From the NCBI GenBank assembly GCA_001247695.2, contig LGRX02035246.1:62001-126000 (forward strand): a stretch of 64,000 nt of DNA, in the 5' to 3' direction. Numbering within the stretch: position 1 is the first letter of the stretch; every line of letters begins with the position of its first letter. A model generated the notes under the pieces. It was not told the origin of the DNA. It saw only the letters and a list, made by a program, of their open reading frames with translations, and did no database searches. The position numbers were made by a program, and so were the translations under genes. This document shows positions 4,665 to 62,164 of the stretch, in pieces. Source of the DNA: Cymbomonas tetramitiformis. Taxonomy: Eukaryota; Chlorophyta; Pyramimonadophyceae; Pyramimonadales; Pyramimonadaceae.

Positions 4665-4695
<31 letters not shown>

Positions 4696-39200: not shown

Positions 39201-41134
39201 ACCGACGAGATCTTACCAATCACATATTCAGCCATGAAGTTCTGCCAGTGCAGGGTGGGTGACGACTGCAGGTGTTTGATGCCATGGTGTTTGTACAGAG
39301 CCTGTGCTGCAGGGTCACACAGCTCCGGGGCACAATCAGTGCGGAGGACCAGGCCAGTGCAGGCAAAGCCGTGATGAACAACATCTGCCAGGAACTGAGC
39401 CAGAATGAAGCTGTATGCTGACTTCTCAGCAGAGAAGTAGCAAAGTGTAAACCTCACAGTGAACTCCACAAAGGTCCAGCGGTACCTCGACCCGTCATAG
39501 CCAATAGGCGTGATCGGGCCTGTAGCATCAGCCGCCCACATAGATCCAGGCTTCTGAGCCCTGTATCTGTCAGCCGGAGGGTGCTTCGGACTCGGCTGTA
39601 CTGTCCGCATACGGGCACACACAGCACAGGCCTCAGCACAGGTCCTGTGAGCCAGCAGCTGCTCCCGGGTAACTGTAGTACCAGGCCGGGCGATCTCAAC
39701 ACCAAGGTCCATGAGCTGAGCCAGCCTGAGACCATGAGCATGAGCATATGCGGAATGGCACCACCTCTCAGGGGTGAACCTCATGGACGTGTACTGATCA
39801 CGGTAGATGATAGCCACCGGGAACGGGGTACCAGCAATGAAGACACGGTCCCCCCCGCCCTCCGAGCCAGCCGACTGAAGGGGCCGTCCAGCATAGGTGT
39901 GCTCACGACGGTAGCTGAATATGCCCTCTGTGCCAGCCGGATACACATGTAGTACCTCCCAGTGAATAAGGTGCTGCCTGAAGGTACTGAGGTGTGACTG
40001 GGGGATCAGGAAGAGGAATACCGTGTGCTCGGGGTCGGTTGCAAAGTCTCGGTTGGCCTTCTTGAGCATCCGCTCACAGGTGAGTCTGTCAAAGGGCGGG
40101 TTGCCGTATATATAGGCACCGGCCCAGAGGTGACCCCAGCAGGAATCAGACAGTGAATACCTGACTGGGCAGGTCTGGTTGTTACCCACGCCGGGGGGGA
40201 GGTCGTCTCCGAAGAGGGAGATGTCAAAGTTGTGTTCCCCGGTCTTGGCCAGTGCAGCGGGCGAGCCCTTCAGGAAAGCCCACTTGGCATACTCTGAGCG
40301 TGCCCACATCCAGTCACAGATCTCACCGGTGCGGACACGTGAGACAGTCTGGGTGAGTGCACTGGCTGCCCCCTCAGGGACCTCCGCCCACATATAGTCT
40401 GTGCCAGAGTCAATGATCCGATAGACACGGCCAGTAGGCAGGTGGGTGTAAGTGAGGGATACAAGGTCGGGGGACCCGAAGCCGAGGGAAAGCATAACCC
40501 GAGAAGACAGGAGAGTGCGGCAGCCGGCCTTATAGTGTGAGTTTGGGAGAACGAAGTGGTCGATGGCTCCGTCCTGGATACAGACCCCATACAGATGGAA
40601 TGTCACAGTAGCATCCGTCCGGTGAGACCCAGCCGTGACCATGGTGAAGGCCACCGTACGGGTGTAGTCCACGTCGGTGCAGGCCGACAGGTCCCCGCAC
40701 ATGACACATGTGGCTCCAGAGTCACACACGATGCCTCTGTCAACCCGGACGGGTGCAGGGACAGCACTGGCCAGAGAACTGAATCCAGAAGCAGCCCACT
40801 CCTCGTCGGGCACATAAAATGGAACTGACTCTGCACTGCCATAGACCAGAATACCAGTATAACCAGCGGGTACCAGAGGGTAGACCACTGTAACTGACCC
40901 AAGCTGACCAGACAGTACACCAAGCTCCACCGAAGCATAAGTACCCACAGCATAACCAGAGACCAGACATAAGCCGGTATCACCGGTAGCCAGTCCATCA
41001 GCTGAGAAAAGCTGACCAGCAGAACGGCCGACGGACCCCCCTGCTGGTGGGGTAAGCTGACTGACTGACTGACTGACTGACTGACTGACTGCCGCAGACC
41101 CAGAGAGTACCCAAACAGTAGTGCCGAGGTACAC
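36206..41134 (-). CDS. pol: Copia pol polyprotein with inserted methyltransferase-like domain
   Basis: 1642 uninterrupted codons. Domains in order: aspartic protease (IVCDSGATCV, Asp138); Dam-like domain about residues 300-450 (NPPF at 345-348, FLFLIP at 373-378); integrase zinc region (WCHSAYAHAHGLRLAQLMDL, then CAEACAVC near 499-506); integrase core with Asp536, Asp600 and Glu636; a long linker (about 760-1000) with no known domain; RT (VYHFDVSQAFVHARLEVPIY, YVDD at 1208-1211); copia RNase H (VYSDADHARD near 1373, SSTGSEY, then DN at 1556). About 95 residues (1452-1546) are inserted in RNase H before the last Asp. The product should process itself, copy the RNA and integrate the DNA. The start lies just after an in-frame TAG at 41146, so pol is probably made as a gag-pol fusion. 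Confidence 0.93.
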   Translation of the reverse strand: MYLGTTVWVLSGSAAVSQSVSQSVSQLTPPAGGSVGRSAGQLFSADGLATGDTGLCLVSGYAVGTYASVELGVLSGQLGSVTVVYPLVPAGYTGILVYGSAESVPFYVPDEEWAASGFSSLASAVPAPVRVDRGIVCDSGATCVMCGDLSACTDVDYTRTVAFTMVTAGSHRTDATVTFHLYGVCIQDGAIDHFVLPNSHYKAGCRTLLSSRVMLSLGFGSPDLVSLTYTHLPTGRVYRIIDSGTDYMWAEVPEGAASALTQTVSRVRTGEICDWMWARSEYAKWAFLKGSPAALAKTGEHNFDISLFGDDLPPGVGNNQTCPVRYSLSDSCWGHLWAGAYIYGNPPFDRLTCERMLKKANRDFATDPEHTVFLFLIPQSHLSTFRQHLIHWEVLHVYPAGTEGIFSYRREHTYAGRPLQSAGSEGGGDRVFIAGTPFPVAIIYRDQYTSMRFTPERWCHSAYAHAHGLRLAQLMDLGVEIARPGTTVTREQLLAHRTCAEACAVCARMRTVQPSPKHPPADRYRAQKPGSMWAADATGPITPIGYDGSRYRWTFVEFTVRFTLCYFSAEKSAYSFILAQFLADVVHHGFACTGLVLRTDCAPELCDPAAQALYKHHGIKHLQSSPTLHWQNFMAEYVIGKISSVSRALTETAGMDLTYWPLADSHACLLWDILPHGRDAVVPFYHLMGYHFIYSRIEIFGTLCTVAMDAQQMRARHPGVSKKRTPRAWQGRFVGISLRSSAYKILDLERNKVVSEGRPDFIRNYSEFGQVMSSFPAPAPDEQHSAPVPSDRPEPWGDYTTDMVVTVHSVAAYYDTRDGETYVTVQLLDTGSSADTFWTTAQQYVMADPAGTAWFDLVHWLDRRRVIDCVNQYYPLWTLAKAQEARGDPLYPALIVSTDMRRSRSYGVLFRPMAYGDVTAPRAYAMDLRASLVVFPDTHSACHLPFSDHPEQDQWLLPHYVVPPEDTVGTLPASGTLSFCHISADLAERLYHTAAPDLPLPGGYRQALSMPDGAQWEEAIAGGEVQPLIDQGKIEPVEVLPDGEIATSTIFVLNKPWKPRDGLPPVQIHKARMAVAATWHWGYTQAETACTVADLPTFRLLFILSIIFAGMGVMVYHFDVSQAFVHARLEVPIYVRFPSGYMYKGRYGYAKLLYALYGLRTAGASWQKLANKFMKSFTYQGMHFTQSTYDPCLYYIVTSVFVAFVAVYVDDFGLTCDDAFHQAFWAAFQAAFKSKNLGRMTAVLQLAVDYDRWGIALSQTRQIKELMSKFKLPAKTFHNPMDVNLVIQKPEHPDFTLVTPYLSLLGSLLWIARCTRPDVYYSVIYLAQFSSCPSAQAWEALQRVAQYLYFTRHYRIRYAYPSAPLSVLTIQVYSDADHARDKFNGCLSYSGGIVFLNGMVLHWVCARQTDAEMSSTGSEYVAASVVGQRAMSAIHMIVEMFGFIRITQQEPGVSALALSTAFPAADTSWMQRAATFFENHAMGYGQMGPASPLHYREAEPVPDSSLYALPHAVPVPFDGTGYEDGPREYHSQRSGMYGTSGPFIPRLELPVAVMIDNQAASSILRNVMLSTKIKHVLIRFHCFRGWVCAGYLVPVYINTLLNLADIFTKPLPGLKDKVRVIISMIESFMDVIRPHPSGAGDS
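39784..40237 (-). other. Dam-like methyltransferase domain inside copia pol
   Basis: Residues about 300-450 of pol: EHNFDISLFGDD, a variable stretch with Asn-Asn and Tyr, then AGAYIYGNPPFDR (NPPF encoded at 40102-40091). About 25 residues later comes TVFLFLIPQSHL, then EGIFSYRR and a final strand with PFPVAIIYRD. In phage-type N6-adenine methyltransferases NPP[Y/F] is the catalytic motif that holds the target adenine and S-adenosylmethionine, and the hydrophobic strand ending in Pro follows it. Here the acidic motif before it is FDIS and not FDVD. Copia elements normally have nothing but a short spacer between protease and integrase. Activity is unproved. Confidence 0.65.
41056..41087. repeat. 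(CTGA)8 tetranucleotide repeat at the gag-pol junction
   Basis: Eight perfect CTGA units, read as (TCAG)8 on the coding strand and translated as SQSV repeats near the start of pol. All three frames of this repeat are open, so gain or loss of a unit shifts frame without creating a stop. Confidence 0.93.
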
Positions 41135-41200
41135 AGGGCCAGGCTACAGATAACCAGAACAGCAGTCCAGACTGGTGAGGAGCGGCGAGAGGCACGGGGC

Positions 41201-43405
41201 TCACCCGCCGGAGGCTGGGTTGTTGAAGGCTGGGGCTTGCCCGCTGGTGACTGCCGGTTGACAAGGCGTCGCCAGGTGCGCACGGGAGTCCTGGCACCAA
41301 CGGCAGGAAGACAAGCCGAGATATATAGCCAGACTCCAGGTGATAGCATGCCAAAGCACCAGAGCCCGCGGGTGCAACTCCAGCACAGCACCGGAGGCAC
41401 CACCAGACTGCACCGCATCTGCCGTGCCAGAGAATGCTAGAATGCACAGCAGACTCATGTAAATGAAGTGACCCGCCCCATAGGGCCTGCGGCCCGGGCC
41501 ACCCGGACCCCTGGGCCGGGACGGCGGTGCCGTGCTCACCAGCTGCACAGCTCCAGGGAATTCGGTGTTGGTTGTTGTGATCTGCACGTCGGCTGCCGGC
41601 ACCGCTGGCTGCTGTGGCTCAACACTGAAGTGCTGTAGAGACATGGCAGGGTCCGAAGGCTGGTGCACGGCAACGTGGAGCTGAGCAGGTGTCATCTCAC
41701 CGTCGGGGCAGTCCCCATCGCCAGGGTCCTGGTACGAGTTGAAGCGGTTGACAGCGTCGTAGTACTGCTCCTCCGAGCGGCCACATGAGTCCCAGATAGC
41801 CCACTCCGACTCAGTCCACGGCTCCTCACTGTCAACGGCAGAGTGCGGCACAACGGCAGCCGCTTGGGCCGCGGGGAGGTCAAGCGGTGCCTCCCCGAGC
41901 TCCAATGAGTAAGAATATAAGCATGACTCGTAAACCTCCTCCTCCGGATCGAGGAAAGCCTCATCCAGCTCTGACAGGATGTCCGCAATCGGCGTGCCCT
42001 CGGGGTGGAACCCCGCCACATGCGCACTCTGCACCCCTCCAGGGCAATCACGGCGGAAGTGAGGGCCGCCGCAGTCCCAACACTGGACCGTGTGGCGGCC
42101 CTGTGCATCTCGGGTCACTCTCAAGGCAGTCGGTGAACCACCGGATGCAGGCTGCCGCTGCCCCTGAGTCCGCGGTGGAGGGGCATGAGGGGAAGGGTGA
42201 GAGCCCTTCCTGTGCCCCTTCATGTTCTGTTGTCGATTCTTCCCGCCGCGGGCCGGCCTGGCGCGGGGAGCTGTACCCCTGTCGCCCCCAGACCGGTGAG
42301 CACCCTGCCCGGATGCCTGCGGCTGAGCATCCCGAGTCTGTGGCGGGTGTCTGGGCTCGTCACGCCTGCGGCCACCAACAATGCGAGTCTGCGGGATGCC
42401 CGCACGGGCCATAAGGGCGGCAGAAGGGGACTCCCCAGAGAGGAGGAGTGAGGCCGCCAACGCGGAGACCCCATCCTTTTTCTTCTTCTCTTTAAGCAGC
42501 TTCTTTTCCTCTGTCCGCTGCTGGTGGAAGGCCTTCACGGCCAACGTGAACTGCTGAATGCCGAGAGCCCTCTTCAATCTACCATCAGCCGTCTTGGAAC
42601 TCCACTCCTGCAGAAGATCCTTATAATACAGAGGGCACATGCGAAGGGTGAGGAGGTCCAAGGCGAACCCCACACCCCACACATCGTCAGGCTCTATACC
42701 AGGCCTGAGCTCGGACCGGACAGCGGTGTGGTGCTGCATGAAACCCTTAATATAGGGCTCGGGGTCAACATCCTCCAGCAGCTCGATCGCTGGCGCTGTC
42801 TCGAATAAGTAGCCATGGGACACCCACGGCCTGCGTCGCCTGGCAACGGCCCGGCAGATGACGAGCCATGCACGGCGTCCATCATCCGGAGACACCGTAG
42901 CCGACTCCTCAATGAGCCGAAGGCATGATCCTCGCACCAATGACGTCAGGATGCGGTAGAGGATACGAGTGGCCTCAGGAAGAACAGATGTAGTGAGGTC
43001 TGTCGGGTGAAATACCGTGGCAAACTGGAGATTGAAGTCAGTTAGGTGGGTTTTTACCGCCTGAGTGAAGCGGTCCAAGGCGATTTCCCGAGGCACTTGG
43101 CCCTTGATTTTGTCGATGTCGAATACCCACTCCGAGGCTTTGATGTGGGTGGGCCGGCACTGGTCACGAACTTGCTGAATGATACTGGCGCGGTGACCAG
43201 GCTCGCGGAGAATAGTTTGGCAGTCCTTAAGGAATTCCCTGATAACCACAGCACCGCCTGTCTCATCACCCGCAAGTGGGCGATTCTTCACAGGCGTAGG
43301 GGGCACAGGCTCCTCAGGGCCGTCGCTGAAGGGAAGCGCCCTCCGCGTGTCGATCCCAGCCGGGACCGGAGTGGTGAATCCATCGGAAGAATCCACGGTA
43401 GTCAT
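41201..43405 (-). CDS. gag: Copia gag polyprotein
   Basis: 734 codons from ATG 43405. A helical capsid-like region (about 120-330) has spaced Trp residues and ends in a Lys-rich helix. A long basic Gly/Arg/Pro region follows, then a zinc knuckle at about residues 440-452, CWDCGGPHFRRDC, which is Cys-X2-Cys-X3-His-X4-Cys (one residue shorter than usual). An acidic region follows. Near the C-terminus are two hydrophobic stretches (HFIYMSLLCILAFSGTADA and LVLWHAITWSLAIYLGL) that look like membrane segments, unusual for gag. It ends at TGA 41203-41201 in the same frame as pol; a second in-frame stop, TAG, lies at 41146-41144. Confidence 0.85.
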   Translation of the reverse strand: MTTVDSSDGFTTPVPAGIDTRRALPFSDGPEEPVPPTPVKNRPLAGDETGGAVVIREFLKDCQTILREPGHRASIIQQVRDQCRPTHIKASEWVFDIDKIKGQVPREIALDRFTQAVKTHLTDFNLQFATVFHPTDLTTSVLPEATRILYRILTSLVRGSCLRLIEESATVSPDDGRRAWLVICRAVARRRRPWVSHGYLFETAPAIELLEDVDPEPYIKGFMQHHTAVRSELRPGIEPDDVWGVGFALDLLTLRMCPLYYKDLLQEWSSKTADGRLKRALGIQQFTLAVKAFHQQRTEEKKLLKEKKKKDGVSALAASLLLSGESPSAALMARAGIPQTRIVGGRRRDEPRHPPQTRDAQPQASGQGAHRSGGDRGTAPRARPARGGKNRQQNMKGHRKGSHPSPHAPPPRTQGQRQPASGGSPTALRVTRDAQGRHTVQCWDCGGPHFRRDCPGGVQSAHVAGFHPEGTPIADILSELDEAFLDPEEEVYESCLYSYSLELGEAPLDLPAAQAAAVVPHSAVDSEEPWTESEWAIWDSCGRSEEQYYDAVNRFNSYQDPGDGDCPDGEMTPAQLHVAVHQPSDPAMSLQHFSVEPQQPAVPAADVQITTTNTEFPGAVQLVSTAPPSRPRGPGGPGRRPYGAGHFIYMSLLCILAFSGTADAVQSGGASGAVLELHPRALVLWHAITWSLAIYLGLSSCRWCQDSRAHLATPCQPAVTSGQAPAFNNPASGG

Positions 43406-44063
43406 GGTAACCGTAAGCGAAGCACCGACGCGATGAAACCCTAACGATAAGGGTGAGCCCCCTTCAAGGAAGGGGCCAAATCCGAGATAAATTCAAAATC
43501 TGCTCCGATGCCCACGAAACTCGGTAACACGGCCGGGATTGGCGAAGTAAAAATACCCTCCAAAGGAAAATGTCTGAGCCCAAGCGCTCCGTAAGTTATA
43601 AGCGGTCAAAAACGGCCAAGTCGCCCGCAAGATTTCAAAATCCGCTCAAAGTTCACAAACAAGCGGCAAGCGTGGCAAATCAAGGTAAAATGATACGGGT
43701 AAAGACGTATAGAGTAGTGAGGGAAAATGCGGAGCGGCGGGGGTGGGCGGAAAGTAGGAGCGTAAGGTCGAGGTCTCCGCACTTGTCGATGTCCGAGGTC
43801 ATGGTCCTTTTAACGTGTCGCGATCCACTTGGTACCAAACTCTGCGCAATGCTGCATACAATCGGGGGCCCCAGCGCTCTCTGACCCATCTTCTCCGTAC
43901 TTTCCTCCGCCACTCGTCGCGCTTATTATCTCTCCATCCACGCAGTCAGTTGTGCCGCAAAAACGCGGCACCCCGCAACATTCTACCTACTCAGCCACGC
44001 TCGCCCCTCTACAGCTTTAGCCAGCCATTTAGTGGCTTTAAATCAAAACCACTTTAGGCAAGT
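43406..44063 (-). other. Copia 5' leader
   Basis: About 660 bp between primer site and gag ATG with no supported gene. It would contain packaging signals. Confidence 0.5.
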
Positions 44064-44078
44064 GGTGGGCCTATAGCC
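44064..44078 (-). promoter_or_regulatory. Copia primer-binding site, half-tRNA(iMet) type
   Basis: GGCTATAGGCCCACC lies directly after the 5' LTR on the minus strand. It resembles the copia-type site complementary to the anticodon side of initiator Met tRNA (GGTTATGGGCCCA) and the site at 14174 of the TRIM-like element. Confidence 0.55.
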
Positions 44079-44335
44079 TACTAGAATGTCCTAGTGACAC
44101 AGTGAAAACGCTGAACGCCGTAGGGTTTGAACGAGGCAATCGGGTATATCAAAAAGATAGAAATGAATACACGACTCTCAGGCTATCTAAGCTCTGAGGC
44201 CGTCACTAGGCAATCATATCGTGTGTCACAGTCTAAGCTACCGAAGTCGAACTACTGAGTACAGGTAGGAAGTCACTGTACTGTCACTGTCACTGTCATA
44301 CGTCATACGTGGTACTGAACTACTGAATCTCAGCA
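44079..44335 (-). repeat. 5' LTR of the copia element
   Basis: Differs from the 3' LTR by about two substitutions (GAGCG/GAACG and GTGATAC/GTGGTAC, plus-strand view) and one A insertion. As the 5' LTR it should hold the promoter. Confidence 0.92.
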
Positions 44336-44618
44336 TATATTGCTTACCGTGGCGGGCCGGCCCGGGGCCGTAGCTCACCACTCCGGGCCGCATGCGGGCC
44401 GATGGAATATATGGATGCGGGCCGTCACGTTTGATATGAAAATACCGAAATTTATGCAAAATTATGCGATTTTTACAATGTCACCATACTTAAGATTAAA
44501 ATTTCGCGCCTGCGGCGGGCAATTTTGGAGATTGGCCGTATTGGCCGAAAGCGGGCCAGTGGATTTGCCGATTGCGGGCCGTAAAGGAAAATATAAAGCA
44601 ATACACACTGGTCGCGGA

Positions 44619-45640
44619 GCGTCGACCCCGAGCACGGCGTAAGCGAGTGCGTTGGCGTGACCAGGTCGCAGCAGTCGGTCAGCCTGGTGCTGAAGGTGGC
44701 CCCTCCACTGAGCAGCCGCCGGGACCAAAAGTCCCCACCGTTCCGAGCCCTCAGGGGCAGAAGTCGAGAGCCCCGGCACTAGTCGTTCCGCCAATCACTA
44801 CCCCGCCGCCAGCTCCACGGACCACAGACCAGCCGGCACCAGTCGTCCCGCAAGTCACTACCCCGCCGCCGGCTCCACACACCACAGATCAGGCCTCCCC
44901 GGAACCGCCGGAGGACGAAATAGACGAGACAGTGTCGCCAGAAATCTGGCAGCAGCTTAGGGACCTGGAAAAGGAATTCGCGGATGTCATTTGCACAGAG
45001 CTGCCAGACTCGGTCCAGTCAAGGGAGTACAAGGCCGGCATCCGGCTCCGGCCAGATTGGAACGGGAACCCCTTACACCGGCGAGGATACACGTTGTCGC
45101 AGGAGGAGTTGCGGCAACTCCGGCAACAGCTAGACGAACTCTTAGCCAAAGGGTACAATCATACGACCCTCGGCCTCTCCGTGGGGCTGTCCCGTGTTGA
45201 TGGTCCCCAAGCCAAGTAACCCCAAGGAGCTGCGTCTAGTCATCGACTACAGACAGATCAATGAGATCACGATCAAAGATAAGTACCCCCTTCCGGATGT
45301 GCAGAGTCTCTTAAATGACCTACAAGGGGCTACCGTCTTCTCTACGATGGATGCCCTTTGGGGATTTTGGCAGGTCCCTATGGGAGCGGATGACGTGGAG
45401 AAGACTGCAATGCCTACGCACTTTGGAGCGTACGAGTGGTTGGTCATGCCTATGGGATTGTCAAACTCCCCAAGCACCTGGCAAAGGATGATGACCCAGT
45501 ATCTCGGGCACCTGCCCTTTTGCAGGGTATTTGTAGATGACATCATGATTTTCTCAGCTGAGGTTCCGAGTAAGAGCGCCCATGAGGTACATCTCGACCA
45601 CCTCCGCCAGGTCTTACGGAGGCGTGTCGAAATAATTCCG
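44619..45640 (+). pseudogene. pol: Gypsy linker and reverse transcriptase
   Basis: A Pro-rich linker has two near-identical units (VVP-TTPPPAP-TTDQ). Next is the RT start: ELPDSVQSREYKAGIRLRPD, HRRGYTLSQEELRQLRQQLD and ELLAKGY. A small indel near 45155-45168 shifts the frame before PSASPWGCPVLMVPKP. RT then continues with LRLVIDYRQINEITIKDKYP, FSTMDALWGFWQVPMG and VFVDDIMIFS (catalytic Asp pair). Another frameshift lies near 45625. The RT copies element RNA into DNA; this copy cannot make it in one piece. Confidence 0.85.
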
Positions 45641-46974
45641 TCTATCTTAAGAAGTCAAAAGTCAAACTGTGCAAACGAGCAGTCCGGTTCCTAGGGCACG
45701 TGGTGGATCGGGATGGATGTCGCCCACAGCAGGATAAGGTCGCGTCGGTGCGCGACTGGCCAGACCTAGAGACTGTCACACACGTGCGACAGTTCCTGGG
45801 CATGTGTGGCTTCTACCGAAGGTACATCCAGAACTTCGCAGCAGACCTCGCGTACCCGCTGACCCGCCTCACCAAATCCGGCGTGGAATGGACCTGGGGC
45901 GAGAATGAAAAAGCAGCATTTAAACAGCTGAAAACTGCTTTGATTTCCTCCCCAGCCTTGGCCCTACCCGATCAAAAGGGCGCCGCAGACGGTTCCAGAC
46001 CCTTCTTCGTGCAGACAGATGCCAGTGGAGTAGCACTAGGGGGTGCACTCATGCAGGATCAGGGACGAGGCTTGCAGCCCTTGGCCTTTGAAAACCGGTA
46101 GTTCTCCAGCGCAGAGCAGAACTATCACGCTGGGGAACGAGAGCTTTGTGCCATCCATCATTGTACCACAGTCACCTGGAGACATTATCTGATTTTTACA
46201 TCATTTAAGCTCATGGGGGACCATAAACCCCTCAAGTGGCTCTTCGCCCCAGCTAGGGAGCTCAGCCGACGTCAAGCTCGCTGGTACGAGGACTTGGTAG
46301 AGGTAGGAGTCCATCAGATGGAGCACGTGCCAGGACGCTGCTTGGTAGTACCGGATGCGCAGTCCCGGCGACCAGACTATCAGGAAATGTCAGCCAGGGA
46401 AGGCTTGAAGGAAAAGGGGATAGTGGATCGCGCCACGGATGGACGCAGAGACTCTGAGCCGAAAGGCAAGGGGTCCGAAGAGGACGAGGATCCTACCTCT
46501 GTCCTCGGGATAGTGGATCGCGCCACAGATGGACCCAGGGACTCTGAGCCGAAAGGCAAGAGATCCGAAGAGGACGAGGATCCTACCTCTGTCTTAGGCG
46601 CCACCTTCGAGTATAGTGATTCCGAGGACGAATCCTTCCCTCCCACCAGTCCGGCACCGGTCATTGGTGAGCTCACCCATCTGAACGGGCTCACGTGGGT
46701 AGAGACGCCGGCCCTCTGGCTGGACGCAGCTGACACCCTAGCAGTAGGCGAGAAGTCCTTAAGGGATGCCGAATCGCTAGCAGTCATGACCAGAGCAGAC
46801 CGAGCTAGGGAACAGGCCGCAGCAGAAGTCCAGAGTCATCCGGAGGCAGCGAGAGAAGCACCGGAAACCGACGAGTTCCCCCATCCTGAGACCCAGAGTC
46901 ATCCGAAGGCAGCCAGAGAGGCACCTGAGCCCGTTAAGCCCCCAGAAGGTAGCTCCCACTACGACCAGGTCGTG
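45641..46974 (+). pseudogene. pol: Gypsy RT end, RNase H and acidic linker
   Basis: After the frameshift comes the RT thumb and connection (VYLKKSKVKLCKRAVRFLGH, QFLGMCGFYRRYIQNFA). RNase H follows (FFVQTDASGVALGGALMQ, AEQNYHAGERELCAIHH, DHKPLKWL) with one in-frame TAG at 46099 in place of the usual Lys/Arg before FSSAEQNY. After LVVPDAQSRR an acidic linker contains a 90-bp tandem duplication (46419-46598) with unit IVDRATDG-RDSEPKGK-SEED. A second Ala/Glu/His-rich repeat (QSHPEAAREAPE) precedes the methyltransferase-like domain. Confidence 0.85.
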
Positions 46975-47419
46975 GATCGCCAGGACTGGAAGCTGATCAG
47001 GGAGCGCTTTGAGGAGATAGCGGCCCAGTACGGGATGTTTGACGTTGACGCGTGTTGCGACTCCATGGGCGTTAACCGGCAGGTTGACACCTATTGGACC
47101 GATTGCTTGAAGGAAAAGTGGCGCGGGAAACACGTTTGGTGTAACCCCCCTTACACGAAGGATTCGGACTTGATAGAAAGAATTCTTCGGCATTTCCTTC
47201 CTGAGTGGCGCGCCGATCCGGAAAACACCTCGGCAATGTTCCTTCTACCAGACTATGACGCTCCCTGGAGGCGGTTGATTCACCCCAAATATGGGCTTCA
47301 TCCGGTCAAAGTCTTTGATATGAAGGACGAGAGAGGTCGTCCCAACCACCTCTTCGAGTCTCCCGATGGAGGTCGGCCCCCGCTGCGCTGGCCGGTCCTT
47401 CTGGTTTGGGCCCCCGCAG
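46975..47419 (+). other. Dam-like methyltransferase domain in the gypsy element
   Basis: About 148 residues, open throughout: DRQDWKLIRERFEEIAAQYG, then FDVDACCDS, Asn and Tyr-Trp further on, CLKEKWRGKHVWCNPPYTKD (NPPY encoded at 47143-47154), TSAMFLLPDYDAPWRRLIHP, and a late PPLRWPVLLVWAP strand. This order (FDVDAC, Tyr, Leu-Trp, NPPY, LLP) is that of phage-type DNA N6-adenine methyltransferases, which use S-adenosylmethionine to methylate adenine. DIRS retrotransposons are known to carry such a domain, but Ty3/gypsy elements normally go straight from RNase H to integrase. It is flanked by low-complexity linkers, as an inserted module would be. Confidence 0.78.
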
Positions 47420-47511
47420 CCAGTAGGGCGAAGCCCCGAGCGCCACCTGCGCGAAAGGACAGTGAGACGGAACCCGACGAGCCTTTAGTCACTACAGGGG
47501 TTGCAGCAAAG

Positions 47512-47791
47512 GTCAGAGCCAGGGTATATTGCTTACCGTGGCGGGCCGGCCCGGGGCCGTAGCTCACCACTCCGGGCCGCATGCGGGCCGATGGAATATA
47601 TGGATGCGAGCCGTCACGTTTGATATGAAAATACCGAAATTTATGCAAAATTATGCGATTTTTACAATGTCACCATTTTAAAATTTCGCGGGCAATTTTG
47701 GAGATTGGCCGTATTGGCCGAAAGCGGGCCAGTGGATTTGCCGATTGCGGGCCGTAAAGGAAAATATAAAGCAATACACACTGGTCAGAGC
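47512..47791. mobile_element. hAT-type MITE, copy 2
   Basis: The element at 47520-47783 (264 bp) lies between 8-bp duplications GTCAGAGC at 47512-47519 and 47784-47791. Its ends are the same as copy 1. Compared with copy 1 it lacks a short GC-rich stretch around CTGCGGCG. It is inserted between the methyltransferase-like and integrase regions of the gypsy element and shifts the downstream frame. Confidence 0.93.
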
Positions 47792-49136
47792 AGCGTTGGG
47801 GCCACTGAAGGCTGATGAGTTCGTCCGCGCCTTGCAAGCGGAATACGAACGCAGCCCGTACCTCAATTCGTTAGGAGAAGAACTGATCGCGGCCCCACAT
47901 CAGAGAACAGACACGTTTCGCATGGTAGACGACATGATTTGGCGAGTGGCAGAAGGGCGGTATCAGCTAGTGCTAGCTCAGGATTCCCCCCTCAGAGAGT
48001 TGGTGATGCGCGAGGCACACGAGTCCCCGGCAGCAGGGCACACAGGAAGGGATAAGCCACTGGACAGAGTATCCCGTCGTTTTTGGTGGCCACGCATGAG
48101 CAAGGATGTCACCGACTGGTGCAAATCCTGCGTCGTGTGCCAGCAGACCCGGCCGCGCAACGGGTATCCAGACGGTCAGCTTAACCCCCTGCAAGACCCA
48201 GTAAGACTGTGGCAAGTGGTTAGTATCGACTTCGTTACTGGGCTGCCTCGCACAGAGCGAGGGTACGACGCGTTTGCTACCTTCACGGACAAGCTGTCCA
48301 AGATGGTGCACGTAGTCCCCATGCTTTACGCAGACAGCTCGGCTGCTCAGATCGCGCGCATGTATTTCGACCAAGTGTGGCGTTTGCACGGCGCTCCCAT
48401 GAAGATCGTCTGTGATCGGGACTCCCGCTTCAGAGATGAAATGCATCTCGAGCGACACCGGTTGATGGGAGTCCAGATTGCCTCTACCACGCCGTACCAC
48501 CCACAAGGTGATGGGCAGGCGGAGCACACAAACCACACGGTCGAACGTATGTTACGCGCGTATGTCGACGCCAACCAGTACGATTGGGATTTGTGGTGTA
48601 CCCCGGTCGAGTAAGCCATCAATGACTCTCGTTCCGCCGTCACGGGCTTCACCCCTTTTGAACTGACATACGGTCACGCTCCGGCCTCTCAGCTAGACTT
48701 CTTCGTGGAGGCAGCACTTGCATCACGGAGAGGCCGAGCTAAGGGGGGGAGGGGCGCAGCAGTAAAAAAGGGTACAGCCCACGAGACAGCCCGCCAATTT
48801 GTTCGCCAGTTGCAGCTCGCTAGGGAGAAGCTGCTCTTAGCTCAGCAGCAGCAGATCGCCCAGTACGACGCGCGTCACAAGGCCAGGAGTTACGCAGTAG
48901 GCGATGAGGTGTGGGTAGACGCCACGTACCTCACCCAGCCGGGCGACCGCGGGTTGCACAAGAAACTGCTTAAGAAGCGCCTCGGCCCCCTTCGGGTGCT
49001 GGAAGTCTTTTACAGCGACTGGCAGATGGCCCTCCCCGCGAGCGACAGGGGCGCACCGTCGGCCTATATGTTTGAGACGCCTAAGCAGGGGGAAGCGCAC
49101 GATGTGTTCACCGTGGACGGCTTTCGCCGGTCCTAG
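47792..49136 (+). pseudogene. pol: Gypsy integrase
   Basis: The zinc-binding region is present (EAHESPAAGHTG, then CKSCVVCQQTRP). The core has VSIDFVTGLPRTERG (first Asp), MKIVCDRDSRFRDEM (second Asp) and YHPQGDGQAEHTNHTVERML (Glu). An in-frame TAA at 48612-48614 interrupts, after which the same frame continues with INDSRSAVTGFTPFELTYGH and a basic C-terminal region (YAVGDEVWVDATYL, KKLLKKRLGPLRVLEVF). There is no chromodomain, unlike the neighbour at 33643. The frame ends with TAG at 49136. Confidence 0.88.
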
Positions 49137-51572: not shown

Positions 51573-51619
51573 TCTTATCCAACAACAACGTCCCTCTCCC
51601 TGGACACCTGTCTGCAATA

Positions 51620-52239: not shown

Positions 52240-52430
52240 TGAACCTATCGGACCCCCCAAATCGTGCCTCGGACCTATTGGGGACCTGTCGCCCGTTTCC
52301 GATCGGACCTATGAGCAGAATGGGCGATTCTGGCCCTGACCGTGTGGACCTATGCGGGATCTATCCATAATCTGCTACCATTGGACCGGTCCAGATTGCC
52401 GCGTGGACCTATGGGGGACTTATTCGATAA
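52240..52430. repeat. GGACCTAT-type repeats, left block
   Basis: Several diverged units contain GGACCTAT followed by a G run and GACCT/GATCT (at about 52270, 52305, 52347 and 52402). The same word type recurs on the far side of the adjacent gene at 53860-53960. Confidence 0.65.
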
Positions 52431-52591
52431 TATGACTATGTGTGAGCATCCAAGATCAATATGTATCCGTCCGATTCCCATATTCGTCGATACTATATAC
52501 CCGTATCTGGATTTGCAGACGGGTTTCGTTTCTAGGTTTTTTCCAAGGCTACTTCACAAAACACACTCGAGTCGTCGGACTTCACTACAGT

Positions 52592-53504
52592 ATGCGGCAT
52601 TCAACACATCAGATATTTCTCCTGGCTTTATTTGGGCTACTTTACGGCTGCGCTTATGCGGTTTCTCCTCGTGCGGTTCTACAAGTTGAGCGCACCCTAT
52701 CGTGCGAAGTGGTCGAAAGTGATGGAGCTGGACCTGCCGTTCTCATTACTGAAACGCGCGTGTCCCCTCATCCTGATAGCTCTTGGGGGGATGATAGAGT
52801 CACTGTCACCCCTATCGAAGAGATTCAAAACGCTCAAAGTTTGCCAGCTAGTGATCTGGATAACGTGGAGCGCCCTGTTGCCGAAGACGCTCCAGTCGAA
52901 GAAGAACATGAGCGTAGCAACGTTACAGGCACACGGTCTGTAGTCGAAGTAGATGTTCCTCCCAAAAAGGCACAGCGAGTTTCCTTCTTGAAATTCAGCA
53001 CCGCTTTCAAGAAAGCGCCTACAACCTCACCTGCGGCTTTCAAAGATGGCACGACCTCTGCAGCTGCGAAGGAAATAAAAAAGAAACGACAACGGTCAGG
53101 CTTGCAAGCAGTTGGCACTTCTGCATCGACTGCTGAACAACCTCCTGAAAATGATGTTGGCATCGCAAAGCAACAGGTTAGTGTGTTCGCCTCTTCCTCG
53201 CCGCAAGCGCACGCATTATTACCTCGCTGAGTACATACGTATATCGATGTCAACTCATATTTCCGTTGTGCTTTTGCAGGATACTTCCGAGAAAACGTCG
53301 CAGTCGCCTGCCCCTCCACTTGATTCTCAGAGGGTTGGGATCACCCAAGAACCTGCGAGCTTGTCGCCTGATGGCGATGCTTGTGGACCTGTTACTTACG
53401 AGCGCAGAGCGCACGGACAAAAGTACGCAGATATCACTGCCGGTGTCAGAAGCACCAGTTGGAAGTTGCCAACTATGGTGTGGGTAAAGATTGGGTATTT
53501 GTGA
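52592..53504 (+). CDS. Two-exon gene for a probable secreted protein
   Basis: ATG at 52592 is chosen because it gives a signal peptide at once: MRHSTHQ, a hydrophobic core IFLLALFGLLYGCAYA and a small-residue cleavage site before VSP. An upstream in-frame ATG at 52442 would bury it. Exon 1 ends at 53176. The intron 53177-53279 (103 bp) is GTTAGT...TTTTGCAG in phase 0. Exon 2 ends at TGA 53504. The mature part, about 245 residues, is acidic first (VEVDVPPKKAQR, PVAEDAPVEEEHE), then Lys/Ser/Ala-rich, with no Cys framework or known domain. GGACCTAT-type repeats lie on both sides, so it may be gene cargo of a repeat or simply flanked by it. Function unknown. Confidence 0.6.
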
Positions 53505-53849
53505 AAAAGGCCGCAATAGCTCGAAAGGATATTTAAATAGGCTGCACTCAGTGATATTGTTTTCGTTTCTGGTTTTCGATTTGTTTTATCAGTTTGATAT
53601 GGTTTCGTGACATTATTTTCTTATGCATGGGAAATGTTTAGTTTATATCATTTCCATGGAGTTTTCACCGATTTGTTATGCTCTTACATGTGTTCTCGAA
53701 AGTGTAAATTTTCACTTCTGAAGCCCCGACGATCGTGATTTTAAACTTGTGATGTACCTTAGTTTATTCCTATAAGATATAAGCGAAGTCACATATCACA
53801 TTCGGTCCGCAAGCACGCTCGTTCTAGCGAGATCCATACATTTTTGATA
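53505..53849. other. 3' region of the two-exon gene
   Basis: AT-rich, without a coding frame. It probably includes the gene's 3' untranslated region; no clear AATAAA signal is present. Confidence 0.4.
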
Positions 53850-53962
53850 TTTTGGGACCGAATGTTTTGGGACCGCGCGGACCTATAGGGGACCTGTCGA
53901 AGTATTATGATGGACCGCGCGGACCTATATGGGACCTATGCTTTTCTCAAATCCGGACCTGT
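53850..53962. repeat. GGACCTAT-type repeats, right block
   Basis: At least three units of the type GACCGCGCGGACCTATAGGG followed by GACCT. They match the block at 52240-52430, including a downstream TATGATGG/ATATGACT word. Confidence 0.7.
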
Positions 53963-54770
53963 GTCCGATATCGGATGACAGCGACACTGAAACTGCTCCG
54001 CCAGCAAGTCGTTCTCGATGTCACCGAGGGAGAAGCTGTGGAAGCTTCCCCCAGCGCCGTTCTTGCCGCCGTGCGGGCAGTCGCGGTGCCAGTGGCGGGC
54101 CTCGTCCTTCTTGCACGTTGAATTTTGGCAGAATGGAATGAAGTCGCCGCTGCCTTTGTGGAAAGCAACGCGCTTCCTCACCTGCGACTGCGGCCAGTTT
54201 CCCCCCGTCGGGAGGTCACCCGCCGCAAAACGAACACCGGAGCCGCCTCCCCCGTTGCCGATCTTGTTCTTGTCCGCCCGCGGGGTAAAACCCCGCCCGT
54301 TGACCTTGTCCGTGAGGACCTTCAGCTGCCGCTTCACGTCGAGGATGATAGCCGTGAGGTCGGACAGCTGCGAGGTGTCGCCGTCAGTGGCCACGGCCGC
54401 TGCGGACAGGGCGAACGAGGCAGTGTGCGTACCGGCTGCCACGTGTCGGGCGTAGCACTCGAGGACCCATTGTTGAATGGTAAGAAGGTCCACGGCCGCC
54501 CGCTGCTGGTGGGTGAAGAGCCTCGACACCACCGGCGCGTAGAAACCAGGGTCCAGCGCGGCGAGGAAGAGCTCCTTCACCTCGTCATCGTCGAGGGTGT
54601 TGCGCCTCTTGGCGGACCGTAAGGCCGCGTTGAAGTCCGTGATGGACTCGGACGGGTCGGTGTGGGCCTTAAAACGGACGCCAAGGAGGTCCGATGTCCC
54701 CTGGAAGGGTGCACCGGAGTCCAGCAGACGCCTTGCGAGCTCCAGTAGGGCCCGCTTGCCGTCTAGAGGG
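53936..54770 (-). pseudogene. gag: Retrotransposon gag-like fragment
   Basis: The open frame has a capsid-like helical region (ALLELARRLLDSGAPFQGTS, ESITDFNAALRSAKRRNTLD, LFLAALDPGFYAPVVSRLF), a basic Gly-rich linker and a Cys/His cluster near the C-terminus (FCQNSTCKKDEARHWHRDCP), as in nucleocapsid zinc fingers. It resembles copia/UBN2-type gag in pattern. No pol follows on this strand, where the GGACCTAT repeats begin. Upstream (54770-54904) the open frame continues into the AGAAGAC repeats, so its first 40 or so residues are repeat-derived. Confidence 0.65.
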
Positions 54771-54784
54771 TGCAAGGTCGCAGA

Positions 54785-55095
54785 TGCCTCGATGCAGAAG
54801 ATCTTCCGGGAAGACATCCAGAAGTTATCTTCTGGACGTCTTCTGCATGTCTTCTGAATCCCGGAAGACGTCTTCTTGATATCTTTTAGGCGTCTTCTGT
54901 ACATCTTCCCGGAAGATCTTCTGGACGTCTTCTGAAACTCAGAAGATGGTAGACATTAGAAGACGCGTAGAAGACGTCTTCTGGATATCTTCTGGAACCC
55001 AGAAGACGTCTAGAAGACATCTTCCGGAATTCAGAAGATGTACAGAAGTCATGCAGAAGACGTTCAGAAGATATCTTCTGAATGCCTTCTGCATA
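54785..55095. repeat. Palindrome-rich AGAAGAC/GTCTTCT repeat array
   Basis: About 25 copies of GAAGAC/GTCTTC words at 10-15 bp spacing in both orientations, several forming AGAAGACGTCTTCT palindromes (for example near 54970 and 55000). GATATCTTCTGG and TTCCGGAA/CCCGGAAG words are interspersed. The array can fold into many alternative hairpins. Confidence 0.85.
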
Positions 55096-55507
55096 TCTAA
55101 TAAATTTCAACATTCGTATACGCACTCGCGAGGAATATTTTTAGGCTGAAATAAGTTTGCAAGAAGGATGAGTGCAAACAAGATGTAGGCATAATACACT
55201 TCTCGCCATCCTTAACAAGCATATTCTCAATGTTTGATACACGACAAGAGATGATTTGTTTGTGTGGAAGGCTAAGATGCTTTGGAGACTAAAATTGCTT
55301 TAACAATATTACTTTTCAATCAAGAATCTAATCATAAGGAGGGCCACGCATATTATTATCCTAACTAACTAAGTGTCTAGAACTACTTCACATTCATGTT
55401 CTAAACAACTAGTCTAATTACCTAGAAACGATGTTCAACTAACATGCACACATGGCATAGGTCTTGGACCACGCAAAAACATGGGTTTTCCACTCGCTCG
55501 TTTTTAA

Positions 55508-55905
55508 CCGATCTGAAAAACAACGCACACCAAAATACCAACACTTAGTAGAGTGAAAACACACAATGAATGCAAGTACAAATTCCTAGGAAGGGTAAGG
55601 TAAGTACCTTTACTCTTCTAGTTGTGGGCGATGGGCTGAAAATGCGCTTTTGCCACTTGCTCATTTTCAGCCGATCTGAAAAACAAAGCGCAACTCAAAA
55701 CCAAAGGTTAGTAAAGCGGAAAAACACAACGCATAAAGGCAGTATTTTCTAGGTGTGACACTAGGGGATGATAGAGCAAATACCTTTACTTGTGGTGTTG
55801 AGGTTGGGCTGAAAATTTACCTTTTGGACTAGGTCATTTTCAGCCGATCTGAAAAACAAAGCGCAACGCAAAACCAAATGTTAGTAAAGCGCAAAAATAG
55901 TACGA
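55508..55905. repeat. Tandem repeat, about 163-173 bp x 2.3
   Basis: Units start at CCGATCTGAAAAACAA (55508, 55671 and 55844). Each contains GTACCTTTACT or AATACCTTTACT, GGGCTGAAAAT and CATTTTCAG immediately before the next unit. Confidence 0.85.
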
Positions 55906-55972
55906 GACGAAATACAAGATTACCGAAGGAAAACAAAGCTAGGGACGAAAACGAAGGGACACCTTACTATAC

Positions 55973-56485
55973 ATGAAACCTACACATATCTGGACGAACG
56001 CCGTGCTACCCGTACCCCTGCTGCAGTGTACCCAAGCAACACCATGTCCCGCGAGAGCTGTGCTGGGAAAGCACGAGAACACATCGCAGGAAGGAGTTTC
56101 AGCGTCCAGAACACGAGCCATGGGGTCAGCGCAAGCAGTATACGCGATTCCCCGCACCTTGTTGCACCATCTGTTCTGTGGACTGAAGTTGGGTAAGCGC
56201 ATGAGCGAGGAAAGTGCAGCAGCTGTCATGGACCTCATCGCCACCCTCGCTGCCCAGCGCAGCGCAGACGGACGAGATCCCGATGCAGGAACAAGATACT
56301 GGGGTCTAAAACCCTCAGGGCGCAAAGCAGCGCAAGACCCGCAAAGCGAGAGGAGTACCAGGGCGACAGAACCGTTTAAGCGTTGGCAGCGTAATTCGGG
56401 GACGGAACCTCGGGAAACCTCCAGCGCGGAAGGGGACTCAGACCCAAGGACTGAGGGGCACGGGACCCAAGAACCCGAGGCTTAG
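55973..56485 (+). CDS. Hypothetical reading frame with charged C-terminus
   Basis: 170 codons from ATG. A central part (AIPRTLLHHLFCGLKLGKRM, SEESAAAVMDLIATLAAQRS) looks like a helical protein. The end is polar (DSDPRTEGHGTQEPEA) and is partly made by a 56-bp tandem duplication. An overlapping minus-strand frame is also open. It lies before a purine-rich tract, so it may be the 3' end of a retroelement. No domain is recognised. Confidence 0.3.
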   Translation: MKPTHIWTNAVLPVPLLQCTQATPCPARAVLGKHENTSQEGVSASRTRAMGSAQAVYAIPRTLLHHLFCGLKLGKRMSEESAAAVMDLIATLAAQRSADGRDPDAGTRYWGLKPSGRKAAQDPQSERSTRATEPFKRWQRNSGTEPRETSSAEGDSDPRTEGHGTQEPEA

Positions 56486-56552
56486 AAGCCAGGGGGACTC
56501 AGACCCAAGGACTGAGGGGCACGGGACCCGAGAACCCGAGGCTTAGAAGCCA
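56430..56552. repeat. Tandem duplication, about 56 bp x 2
   Basis: GGGGACTCAGACCCAAGGAC and GGGACC-AGAACCCGAGGC blocks are duplicated, ending in TTAGAAGCCAG. Confidence 0.9.
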
Positions 56553-56639
56553 GCATCACTGTGCATGTTTGTTGATCCCCAGACAATGTAAATACAGGCG
56601 AACACTAACGCTAGCGAGGACGTAAGCGCGCGCCTAAAA

Positions 56640-57272
56640 GGGGGGGAGAGTTGTGCTAGGGTAAGTCACGAGACAGAATGACGGCGCGTCAGAATGACGA
56701 GTGACGGGTACTATGACAGTCACCAGTGACAGGCATTTATATGACCAGATGACGAGAGGGTCTGACAGAAATGACTGACAGAAATGCCTGACCCGAAAGT
56801 GAGTTTTGGTGGGAAAACCAGCAGTCAGAGAAATTGGAGGGAAAGCCGGTAGACCTCCAATATTGCCGAGTCAGCACAGTTATAATTATTCAGAGTGATA
56901 TGGAGTGGCCCGGAATAAGTGATGATATAACTGGGCTAGTCGGCAGATTCTATGATGTGACAGATCGAGTTCTCATGAAGCATGATGGGACCTGACAGGA
57001 GTCGACATCGAGTTGTGTTCGAAAGTTCGAGATCTGAAACCATGGCATAAGGCAGCCGGGCAGGCTGAATGAATCAGTTTTGAATTTGTTACTGTGAACA
57101 GCCACACCTGGCTGTTGTAACTCCGACATTAAAGAAAGATCCGATTCACATATATGTATCATGCTTACAGCAATATATATCTCTTCGTAGGATTGAACTA
57201 GGTTCCCTGCATTGTGTAAGTAGACTTAGAGGCTCTTAGAGAGCACCCCCGAACACTTTCTACGTAATAGTA
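56640..57272 (+). repeat. Candidate 3' LTR preceded by a polypurine tract
   Basis: AAAAGGGGGGGAGAG at 56636-56650 is followed by TTGTGCTAGGG. A segment beginning TGTGCTAGG and ending AGTACA at about 57272 has TG...CA ends and a TTATAATTATT word that could be a TATA region. No second LTR is in the window, so the call is tentative. Confidence 0.35.
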
Positions 57273-57299
57273 CAGGGTGGTGTGCTGGATGTGACACCC

Positions 57300-57990
57300 C
57301 GTGTGTGTCACAATCCTTTGTCTGTACTAGTACTCCGTACAGTACGGGTGTCACAGGTTTAGGGTTTCCGGCTTAAGCCGAGCTTCACTCTTTCTAAGGG
57401 ACTTCTCATGTTATCTTAAGTGAAAGCATTCTGAGTTCTTTCCACAATATATAGTCGGCACTATATATCTGACGGTGATCACATGGAGCGAAGGTCCGAG
57501 CATATTAATGTCTCAAAAAATCAATATTGATATATACTTTGATGTTTTGCACACCATCATAGTGCTACTTCCATCACATATTGAGCTCGCCGTGCCGTCT
57601 TCTTCTCGTGGGTATGCGCAGGCTGGAGTAACGAAATAGCCCCCGAAATTGGGGTCTCCTTGTTGAAACCCAAAACGTCACAACTTCTTACTTAGAGTTG
57701 TGTGAGTTATGACATGTTATATCATGCACATACGGTCCACTTGACTAGGAAACCTTCACACGCCTGGATATAATGCATCCACGGTTCAAAATTGATGACT
57801 TGGATCATTACCCGGTACTTTTGCAGGGTCGCCACACTAAAAGAAATCCCCCAAAAATCATTTATCATCAAAAGTTGCGAATGATGGGAAATGTTCATCC
57901 CCAAGACCCTACAAGTACACGAAAATCATTATAAGTTCATAGAATATATCAGATACTCGTCTAATTGCGGCGCAACGTAGGGTTGCCCTC
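57300..57990. other. Unassigned stretch
   Basis: No gene is recognised. GGTGGTGTGCTGGATGTGAC at 57275 resembles the junction of polypurine tract and LTR start seen in the TRIM-like element (15536-15552), but the rest does not align. Confidence 0.4.
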
Positions 57991-58154
57991 TGCTGCATAA
58001 ACGTATATAATCATATATAATAATAATAAAACATTTACGTCGATGAGTAAGGCAACGCCTTCGGAACGATCTACTCGAGTCTGTTCCCCTCATACATGAC
58101 AGTCTGCAAGGCAGGAAGCATTCCACAGAGCATGGGAGCATGGGTGACAAGGCA

Positions 58155-58996
58155 CTAATGTGGCGTGCGCCACGTCGGAAAAAACATCAGCAGGTCGTGG
58201 AGCTGATGCACGATGGAGATGGAGGCGGAGTGGGCGGTGGTGGTGATGAAGTGAGAAAAGCCCAGGGGTGCTCCGGCCCTGGGCCGGTTGCCCCCCCGCA
58301 GGGCCCTACAGGGGCCCCAGCCCCATGGGGCTGGGGGAGGGTGGGGGTTCACATAGTTGCCCAGCACTTCCCCTGCGGCCTTTACAACCTCGGTTTCTTT
58401 CCTATTTTTCGTGCAAAGTTCCTGAATGCTGGGTGCTTCCTCTATGGTGCCACTCTCAGGTGGGACTCCCGTTTCATGTAATATGCATTTTCCCCTTGCA
58501 TGACGCCTACACATCCTGGGCAGTTTTTTCAAAAGTGTCTTCACCCCACGGTGTGGAACCCCGATCCCTTTAAGCACCTTGCCAAAGCCTTCTGGTAAGT
58601 ATCCCATGAGAGCAAGTTCCTCCGGCCACTCCACCGCATTCAGGAAGGGGGTTCCTCCTGCATTCCTGTGCTCGCCATCCAAGTGTGCTCCAGGGTACTG
58701 GTTTCGTTGCTCCACATTATTCCTGCCCCCAACCCACGGGCATAATCGGGGTGGCAACAGACAGTCTCTCTCACTCAGGGCTTGCTCAATCATATCCGGG
58801 TGCAGGCCCGTTTCTTTGAGCAATTTGGGGGTATAATCTTTTTATGCGGGACTACATTTACGAACCATTGAAGCAGCTTGTATTGCAGTTTCTCATTATC
58901 AAGTTTCTTACTGACGGGGCATCCCATGCTCTCACTATACATGGACATTGTGACTACATCTGAGTACTTATCTTTGTAACATCCCTCCCCTGGCAT
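58155..58996 (-). pseudogene. C-terminal region of the non-LTR ORF2
   Basis: After the methyltransferase-like domain, in shifted frames: WSGKGPYTMPGEGCYKDKYS, DVVTMSMYSESMGCPVSKKL, then a new frame with KETGLHPDMIEQALSERDCL, PEGFGKVLKGIGVPHRG, CRRHARGKC and SIQELCTKNRKET. No domain is recognised. The last part is conserved in the copy at 4986-5285, so it was coding when both inserted. Confidence 0.7.
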
Positions 58997-59049
58997 TGTG
59001 TAGGGTCCTTTACCTGACCAGTAATCATGTGTGTGGGATGAACGGTATG

Positions 59050-59400
59050 GTCCCCCTTGGGTATTTGAAGATTAACTTAAAACCTTTTCCTGTCCACTTT
59101 TTGAGGTTCTTTGGAGATAATGGCAGGATCCAGATTCCCTCGAATCCCTCCGAAGTCCTGTCCGCCTCTAAGCCACGGGACAATGTCTGCATAACAGCAG
59201 ATGCTTCCCTTAGAATCCCACCATCAAAGGGTGGGTTTCCATAGACCTTTTTCCCTTTTCCAGTGACACTGTTGATATATGCATCTCTTGCAAGTCCATC
59301 CCACCCTATTTTTCCTTTGTGGCAAAAGGGTCTCAGCGCCTATTTCATTGCTGCCGTGGGAATGCACCTCCTTGATTTGATTCCTGGGTGTGAGTTTACA
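59050..59400 (-). other. Dam-like methyltransferase domain in the non-LTR element
   Basis: Following ERGLGKDGCELFCNPVNSHP and one in-frame TAG (59342-59340), the frame reads HKGKIGWDGLARDAYINS, then GKKVYGNPPFDGG (NPPF encoded at 59237-59226), REASAVMQTLSRGL, EGIWILPLSPKNLKKW and GFKLIFKYPRGTIPFIP. The Trp-Asp-Gly-Leu, Val-Tyr-Gly-NPPF and Ile-Leu-Pro blocks are in the same order and at similar spacing as in the gypsy and copia domains. Non-LTR elements normally end after RNase H and the Cys/His knuckle. The TAG makes this copy inactive. Confidence 0.6.
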
Positions 59401-61730: not shown

Positions 61731-61750
61731 CTTGCTATGTTGTTTCGATT

Positions 61751-62070: not shown

Positions 62071-62164
62071 TGAGCCGATATGTCTATGCGTCTGTGTGTG
62101 TCATCGGGAGTAATCTGGGATTGACACGATGACAGTGAAATTGGGCCTGTAATCACGATGAGAA

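Follow-up and report, generated by a model that had tools for sequence, protein, structure and literature searches.

Retrotransposons of the DIRS type that encode a Dam-type methyltransferase (PF05869) after RNase H have been described (PMC3783388) and are also mentioned in a paper that reports C5-cytosine methyltransferases in long interspersed nuclear elements (LINEs), DIRS and gypsy elements (SymbioLINE-Dnmt, SymbioDIRS-Dnmt3 and KnitGypsy-Dnmt3) and copia elements of Symbiodinium lacking any DNA methyltransferase (DNMT) domain (PMC5890265). A further paper lists Dam as a component of DIRS elements and C5 enzymes as components of both Ty3 and DIRS elements; one of its sentences joins Dam- and Dcm-encoding Ty3 and DIRS elements (PMC6338049). 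The ParB-methyltransferase accessory proteins of algal Sola1 elements are comparable as predicted N6-adenine or N4-cytosine methyltransferases of an algal mobile element, but they are encoded by a separate gene of a DNA transposon and have another domain context (PMC12477816). This article describes a stretch of 64,000 nucleotides (the window) from the green alga Cymbomonas tetramitiformis (Pyramimonadales), in which a Ty3/gypsy, a Ty1/copia and a non-long terminal repeat (non-LTR) element each contain a domain with an NPPY or NPPF motif. The window corresponds to C25063:62001-126000 of the host assembly (G000; 851,713,466 bases, 25,745 contigs). LINEs and LTR elements are tallied in the paper on this genome, whose main text contains no occurrence of the word 'methyltransferase' (PMC10675990).

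Six-frame translation of the 64 kb gave exactly three matches to [ND]PP[YFW], at 47143 (+), 40102 (-) and 59237 (-), each inside one named element: NPPY in the Ty3 element, NPPF in the copia element and NPPF in the non-LTR element. The modules that a preliminary description had placed in three stretches were found there, with correct order and coordinates and one motif per element. The classes it assigned are likewise borne out, by domain order, by LTRs and target duplications, and by the endonuclease and reverse transcriptase (RT) of a non-LTR relative, L135. The explanation that we favor, with confidence somewhat above the even mark, is that the Pol of Ty3 chromovirus-type, DIRS-type and Ty1/copia elements has a phage-type Dam as a permanent component kept by selection, that one lineage of this domain moved between the classes, that the non-LTR domain is distant or separate, and that the enzyme would serve self-methylation of new cDNA. 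As in the described DIRS elements, the domain belongs to the Dam family and in Ty3 it occupies the same place in Pol after RNase H, and DIRS-type elements with Dam occur in the Cymbomonas genome too; unlike in the described case, Dam in Cymbomonas is also found in elements with a DDE integrase, between RNase H and integrase in Ty3 and between protease and integrase in copia. In the literature searched, which included few subscription journals, no report was found of copia, Ty3 or LINE elements with an adenine methyltransferase, nor of Dam and a C5 enzyme in one Pol; Dam in DIRS is known, and Dam in Ty3 and copia is unreported there.

The Ty3 domain (46951..47427, + strand; NPPY at 47143-47154) is a phage-type N6-adenine methyltransferase by family match. 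It scores 37.2 bits against Pfam PF05869 (Dam; curated cut-off 28.1, E 3.1e-9), matches phrog_111 (E 8.5e-13) and, below the cut-off of that model, TIGR01712 (E 9.5e-7), and 528 phage records match it in tblastn (E <= 0.01). On the + strand Pfam gives the order RVT_1, RT_RNaseH, Dam, Integrase_H2C2 and rve, the last below cut-off. The RT (45161-45942) is not confined to a single frame and is followed by RNase H (45943-46422); the integrase lies at 47802..48596, with the H2C2 zinc domain at about 47985-48158 followed by rve. This order identifies a Ty3/gypsy element; the chromodomain of chromoviruses is found in relatives only (P0004 and P0006, by precomputed Pfam matches, and L118) and is not among the Pfam matches of the window copy. 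The copy is broken, with its RT in at least two frames. It is also interrupted by a full-length copia element, which separates off an upstream part, recovered as two tblastn pieces with P0005 as query (34607-34975 and 35146-35400, +).

Relatives of the Ty3 domain are numerous. It is matched by 18 protein clusters. Pfam Dam is precomputed for 14 of them; in P0009 the match extends over 96 residues of the domain, P0018 and P0019 contain just the last 64, and P0020 is more distantly related, with a Dam match below cut-off. Seven of these 18 proteins were aligned with the window domain (alignment A1). A search of the host genome gave 7257 first-look candidates, and the 150 places that were scored were all above cut-off and free of stops. 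Among 30 Dam loci cut from the genome, 22 are of the Ty3 kind, 21 of them with integrase, and 15 of these 21 also with RNase H in view.

The copia domain (39776..40330, - strand; YGNPPF at 40091-40108) lies between protease and integrase. The Pfam scan gave no PF05869 match for it, and its matches to other curated families are weak (phrog_111, E 0.019; TIGR01712, E 0.018, 14.6 bits against a cut-off of 97.05). Compared with the Ty3 alignment by hhalign it reaches 95.8% (E 6.8e-9), and HMMER gives it 28.7 bits, whereas none of 2,000 shuffles of its own sequence scored above 5.5. On these profile comparisons its homology to the Ty3 Dam, as a diverged relative, is counted as demonstrated. In the host genome, all 150 scored places are stop-free and identical across all 185 residues. 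Viral sequence scans with the copia domain and with the non-LTR domain returned no relatives.

The domain belongs to a single pol frame of 1642 amino acids (36206..41134, -) encoding protease, methyltransferase, integrase, RT and RNase H, for which Pfam gives rve (sub-cut-off), SH3_retrovirus and RVT_2, the copia order. The protease (40337-40786, -) was named by a DSGA stretch and its position, with no Pfam match; the integrase lies at 38867-39646 (-), the RT at 37265-37984 (-) and RNase H at 36755-37144 (-). A gag-like frame (41201..43405, -), with 83% to P0002 and a CCHC-like CWDCGGPHFRRDC read by eye, has no Pfam match. The two LTRs (35407..35662 and 44079..44335, -) are 98.8% identical and are flanked by target duplications TATAT (35402-35406 and 44336-44340, coordinates read by eye); integrase before RT, two LTRs and target duplication together identify a Ty1/copia element.

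The preliminary description had referred to Dam as known from DIRS retrotransposons, and it is present in DIRS-type elements of the Cymbomonas genome as well. L111 and L117 show RVT_1 (6.2e-5, below cut-off, and 1.1e-7, respectively), then Dam and then a match to a tyrosine recombinase, for which both values (0.0015 and 0.014) are below cut-off; in each of the two, a weak NCBIfam match to RNase H immediately precedes Dam. L114 has a recombinase match of 0.094, and L113, L115 and L116 were assigned to DIRS through domain similarity alone. Two further sequences stand near this group. L112 (G000:C527, 4305-5288, +) has Dam (3.7e-14) in a frame of 328 amino acids with no recognized retroelement neighbor; in the tree this domain is the sister of those from DIRS. 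P0020 (residues 480-780 and 1058-1240), a protein from another source, matches RT weakly, has a C5 methylase (3.8e-9) ahead of RNase H, and matches Dam below cut-off (3.8e-4). NPPY is replaced by NADY in the Dam match, and no recombinase was found in this protein.

The relationship of these domains was examined against viral sequences, 73 of 80 viral loci (67 distinct sequences) passing the length limits for profile and tree. In a tree of 92 rows the 73 phage rows are split from 19 retroelement domains (support 97/88). Ty3, DIRS and L112 form one clade (99/96) that includes a Ty3 clade (98/89) and a DIRS clade (98/88; with the basal L112 included, 100/88), and the copia domain stands at the split, on the retroelement side, with a branch length of 4.0. 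A second, quick tree recovered the same split with a Shimodaira-Hasegawa-like approximate likelihood ratio (SH-aLRT) support of 88; it contained 35 of 45 viral loci drawn with a DIRS query (after a length limit and removal of duplicates; 4 overlap the first set and 31 do not) and 25 earlier phage rows, every third of the first 73. Phage Dam proteins (PF05869, phrog_111, TIGR01712) resemble the retroelement domains in motif order and family match, but they occur outside retroelements and lack the strand T[SAV][AF]x[FV]x[LIV]P, which is found in 18 of the 19 retroelement rows and in 0/73 and 0/35 phage rows. NPPY or NPPF is intact in 18/19 retroelement rows, P0020 being the exception. The tree splits, together with a strand pattern restricted to retroelement rows, make a single domain lineage common to Ty3, DIRS and probably copia the best reading, most likely passed between retroelement classes. 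DIRS sampling in these trees is that of Cymbomonas, save perhaps P0020.

Independent captures, with an N6-adenine methyltransferase acquired separately by every class from phages or eaten bacteria and the likeness reflecting convergence in use, are an unlikely alternative. The copia domain is very diverged, the non-LTR domain is joined to Dam by no profile test, and the bacteria-eating habit of the alga offers a ready source (PMC10675990). Against this, Ty3 and DIRS form one clade apart from the 73 phage rows, so that movement from one retroelement class to another has better support than three captures; copia groups with the retroelements, and the strand pattern is absent from both phage sets. 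Of the repeated capture or exchange proposed earlier, the trees favor exchange among retroelements in the case of Ty3 and DIRS, and copia is compatible with this; a separate capture is likeliest to remain for the non-LTR element.

The non-LTR domain is the C-terminal part of an element copy at 58007..61673 (- strand; ATT-rich 3' tail at 58007). This putative methyltransferase (58931..59516, -; NPPF at 59226-59237; 68% to P0021 over 163 residues) is damaged in the window: a single in-frame stop interrupts it at 59340-59342, and the frame changes near 59030. RNase H (60327-60836, -) is a weak Pfam match (0.13), a Cys/His-rich region lies at 59637-60320 (-), and no Pfam RT was found in the three - strand frames of 57001-64000. 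The class was therefore settled outside the window, with L135 of the host genome, an open frame of 2633 amino acids in which an ExoIII-like endonuclease (4.9e-4) and RVT_1 (5.8e-22) precede the RNase H, Cys-rich and NPPF part. The layout of the family (P0021, L135) is ExoIII-like endonuclease, RT, RNase H, Cys-rich region and NPPF domain. A second, shorter copy in the window (4672..5282, -; 92.8% identical) represents the last 0.6 kb of the element and shares its 3' end and ATT-rich tail; this copy and the tail, with the endonuclease and RT of L135, identify a non-LTR (LINE) element.

A genome search for the non-LTR domain gave 3555 first-look candidates; 150 places were scored at 72-96% identity, and 147 of them are without stops. 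NPPF is kept in all seven examined copies that reach the motif (the window copy, P0021 and L135-L139). In the comparison of P0021 with L135, conservation is highest in the NPPF domain (75.6% over its core, against 64.2% for RNase H and 37.7% for the region before the NPPF domain), and compared with the window copy the values are 68% for the domain and 51% for RNase H. Synonymous and nonsynonymous changes in pairs of copies stand at 14:2, 17:2, 5:2 and 103:24, synonymous divergence (dS) being saturated in 7/10 pairs. Since it is the best-conserved region and shows an excess of synonymous changes, the domain is a retained part of the element.

Its identity is a separate matter. No Pfam, PHROG or NCBIfam match was obtained; HMMER scores on three profiles (-0.6 to 4.2 bits) are within the shuffled range (maximum 8.9), and in the reverse search with a non-LTR profile the best row was a shuffle (7.3), the best real Dam reaching 5.3. 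With three sequences hhalign scored 25.6, above 200/200 shuffles (maximum 21.0) and 10/10 unrelated segments (maximum 18.4); with eight sequences the score was 23.3, which 2 of 300 column shuffles exceeded, and masking NPPF reduced it to 15.4 and removed the signal. Membership of the Dam family is thus not supported so far, with HMMER in noise and the larger hhalign comparison exceeded by shuffles. A pattern of the layout as read by eye was also set aside: it occurs in 6/7 non-LTR copies and in 0/35,000 shuffles, but in 2/73 phage and 0/19 retroelement rows, and being tuned to the non-LTR domain it counts for little as evidence of Dam. Sequence searches of the PDB gave nothing useful (chance-level rows include PCIF1 at 1.4), and the predicted model has a local confidence score (predicted local distance difference test, pLDDT) of 37 only. 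We regard the domain as real, conserved and multi-copy, and as probably a methyltransferase, distantly related to Dam or separately captured. The preliminary description had seen the same phage-type N6-adenine methyltransferase in all three classes; this stands for Ty3 and, as a diverged relative, for copia, but is so far unsupported for the non-LTR domain, which has motif and layout only in common with the others. YGNPPF is common to the copia and non-LTR domains and occurs in 0/108 phage rows, a lead only, as hhalign aligns just 12 columns.

Purifying selection is also apparent on the Dam domains of Ty3 and DIRS. For Ty3, 20 of the 24 loci L087-L110 were compared; among the 8 widest of 190 pairs, counts are 79:71 and 77:71, with a nonsynonymous to synonymous rate ratio (dN/dS) of 0.07 and 0.09, and close pairs give, for example, 11:4 and 7:2 (0.10 and 0.08). 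For DIRS, 11 of 15 pairs have a dN/dS of 0.04-0.13, one close pair has 0.65 and 3 were not computable. Domain order within Pol, copy number, open frames and low dN/dS in Ty3, DIRS and non-LTR copies are established at the level of sequence, and for the shared benefit postulated earlier this selection is indirect support. C5-bearing retrotransposons offer a parallel, as recurrent carriage of DNA methyltransferases in several classes under purifying selection (PMC5890265), although those enzymes are unrelated and act on another base.

In Cymbomonas-type Ty3 elements such as P0014 the two kinds of enzyme are joined. L118, P0011, P0014 and P0017 are of the Ty3 chromovirus type, in which Dam is flanked by RNase H and integrase and the chromodomain is followed by a C5-cytosine methyltransferase domain. 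In P0014 the C5 domain is above the Pfam cut-off (25.8 against 22), in P0017 it is a precomputed Pfam match, in L118 it is below cut-off and in P0011 it is recognized by similarity only. L118 (G000:C10371) is a single open frame of 2548 amino acids with protease, RT, RNase H, Dam, integrase, SH3, chromodomain and the C5 match. By predicted domain content, some Ty3 Pols combine two methyltransferases of different chemistry. A remnant of the end of a C5 methyltransferase as in P0014-type elements was also noticed in the window (55970-56224, +; 46% over 85 residues), with no other part of a C5-bearing Ty3 element matched beside it.

We know of no tested answer to the question of why DIRS elements carry an adenine methyltransferase. 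The finding of Dam in two further classes with DDE integrase, in two other places in Pol and in many copies indicates that the DIRS recombinase need not be required for its use. The mechanism proposed here, which we hold tentatively and somewhat short of an even chance, is that an element marks its own new cDNA before or at integration. The enzyme would be made within the Pol polyprotein beside RNase H and integrase or recombinase, and given its place in Pol, after RNase H in Ty3 and DIRS and before integrase in copia, it would be on hand when double-stranded cDNA is completed. It would then methylate adenines of this cDNA, and the methylated copy may be read as host-like or active DNA, or be shielded from nucleases or silencing. 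In related green algae N6-methyladenine (6mA) is found near the starts of active genes, which makes self-marking as active DNA plausible; nuclease protection fits too. Non-LTR elements copy RNA at the target with no free double-stranded cDNA, so that their methylation would affect the insertion site or RNA. No clear GATC bias was detected.

That the domains methylate RNA (the element transcript or primer RNA) instead of DNA is rather improbable. It would suit non-LTR elements, given their copying of RNA at the target, and the best structural matches of the predicted copia model are RNA N6-adenosine enzymes; however, matches at this level do not separate RNA from DNA enzymes, and the Ty3 and DIRS domains match families named for phage DNA adenine methyltransferases. 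Lower again ranks the possibility that the targets of marking or silencing are rival elements or viral DNA entering the cell and not the element's own copy, an antagonism or host defence already published as an idea for methylases in retrotransposons (PMC6338049) and compatible with the many integrated viruses of the Cymbomonas genome (PMC10675990), whereas a location inside Pol would better suit action on the element's own cDNA. Lowest stands an inactive relic kept for nucleic-acid binding or polyprotein folding, which P0020 without NPPY and the broken non-LTR copy of the window might suggest, against intact motifs in nearly all retroelement rows, the stop-free state of almost all scored non-LTR places and low dN/dS in most computable pairs.

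Returning to adenine marking of new copies, the presence of related domains in at least three kinds of element and of a similar one in a fourth suggests that DNA marking helps elements spread, and points to accessory domains moving between retroelement classes. A broader proposition, falling somewhat below an even chance, is that Ty3, copia, DIRS and LINE elements all write 6mA, at least three of them through one class-jumping lineage across different integration chemistries and LINE by its own acquisition, with some Ty3 elements wielding adenine and C5 enzymes together. If so, labelling new copies by adenine methylation would be a practice shared by the retrotransposons of this host. With nanopore data available for it (PMC10675990), this single alga would provide up to four parallel cases for the study of 6mA on cDNA and new insertions.

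Several minor features of the window were recorded. The RT-Dam part of the Ty3 element has on either side an insertion of about 270-290 bp (35397-44610, interrupted by the copia element, and 47520-47783), and the two insertions share 93% identity. From their ends (CAGGG...CACTG; read by eye) and flanking 8-bp repeats (GTCGCGGA / GTCGCGGA and GTGAGAGC / GTCAGAGC), we take them to be hAT-like miniature inverted-repeat transposable elements. Further Ty3-type pieces without an NPP[YFW] motif are located at 6782-8850 (-; gag, protease and RT) and 33664-34629 (-; integrase); these are incomplete and hence no measure of whether their families lack Dam. At 24702-25569 two adjoining tandem arrays, with units of 36 nt and 45 nt, are open in translation (NWQVRVFNPTQD and DAVHALSDGQDPQRV repeats).

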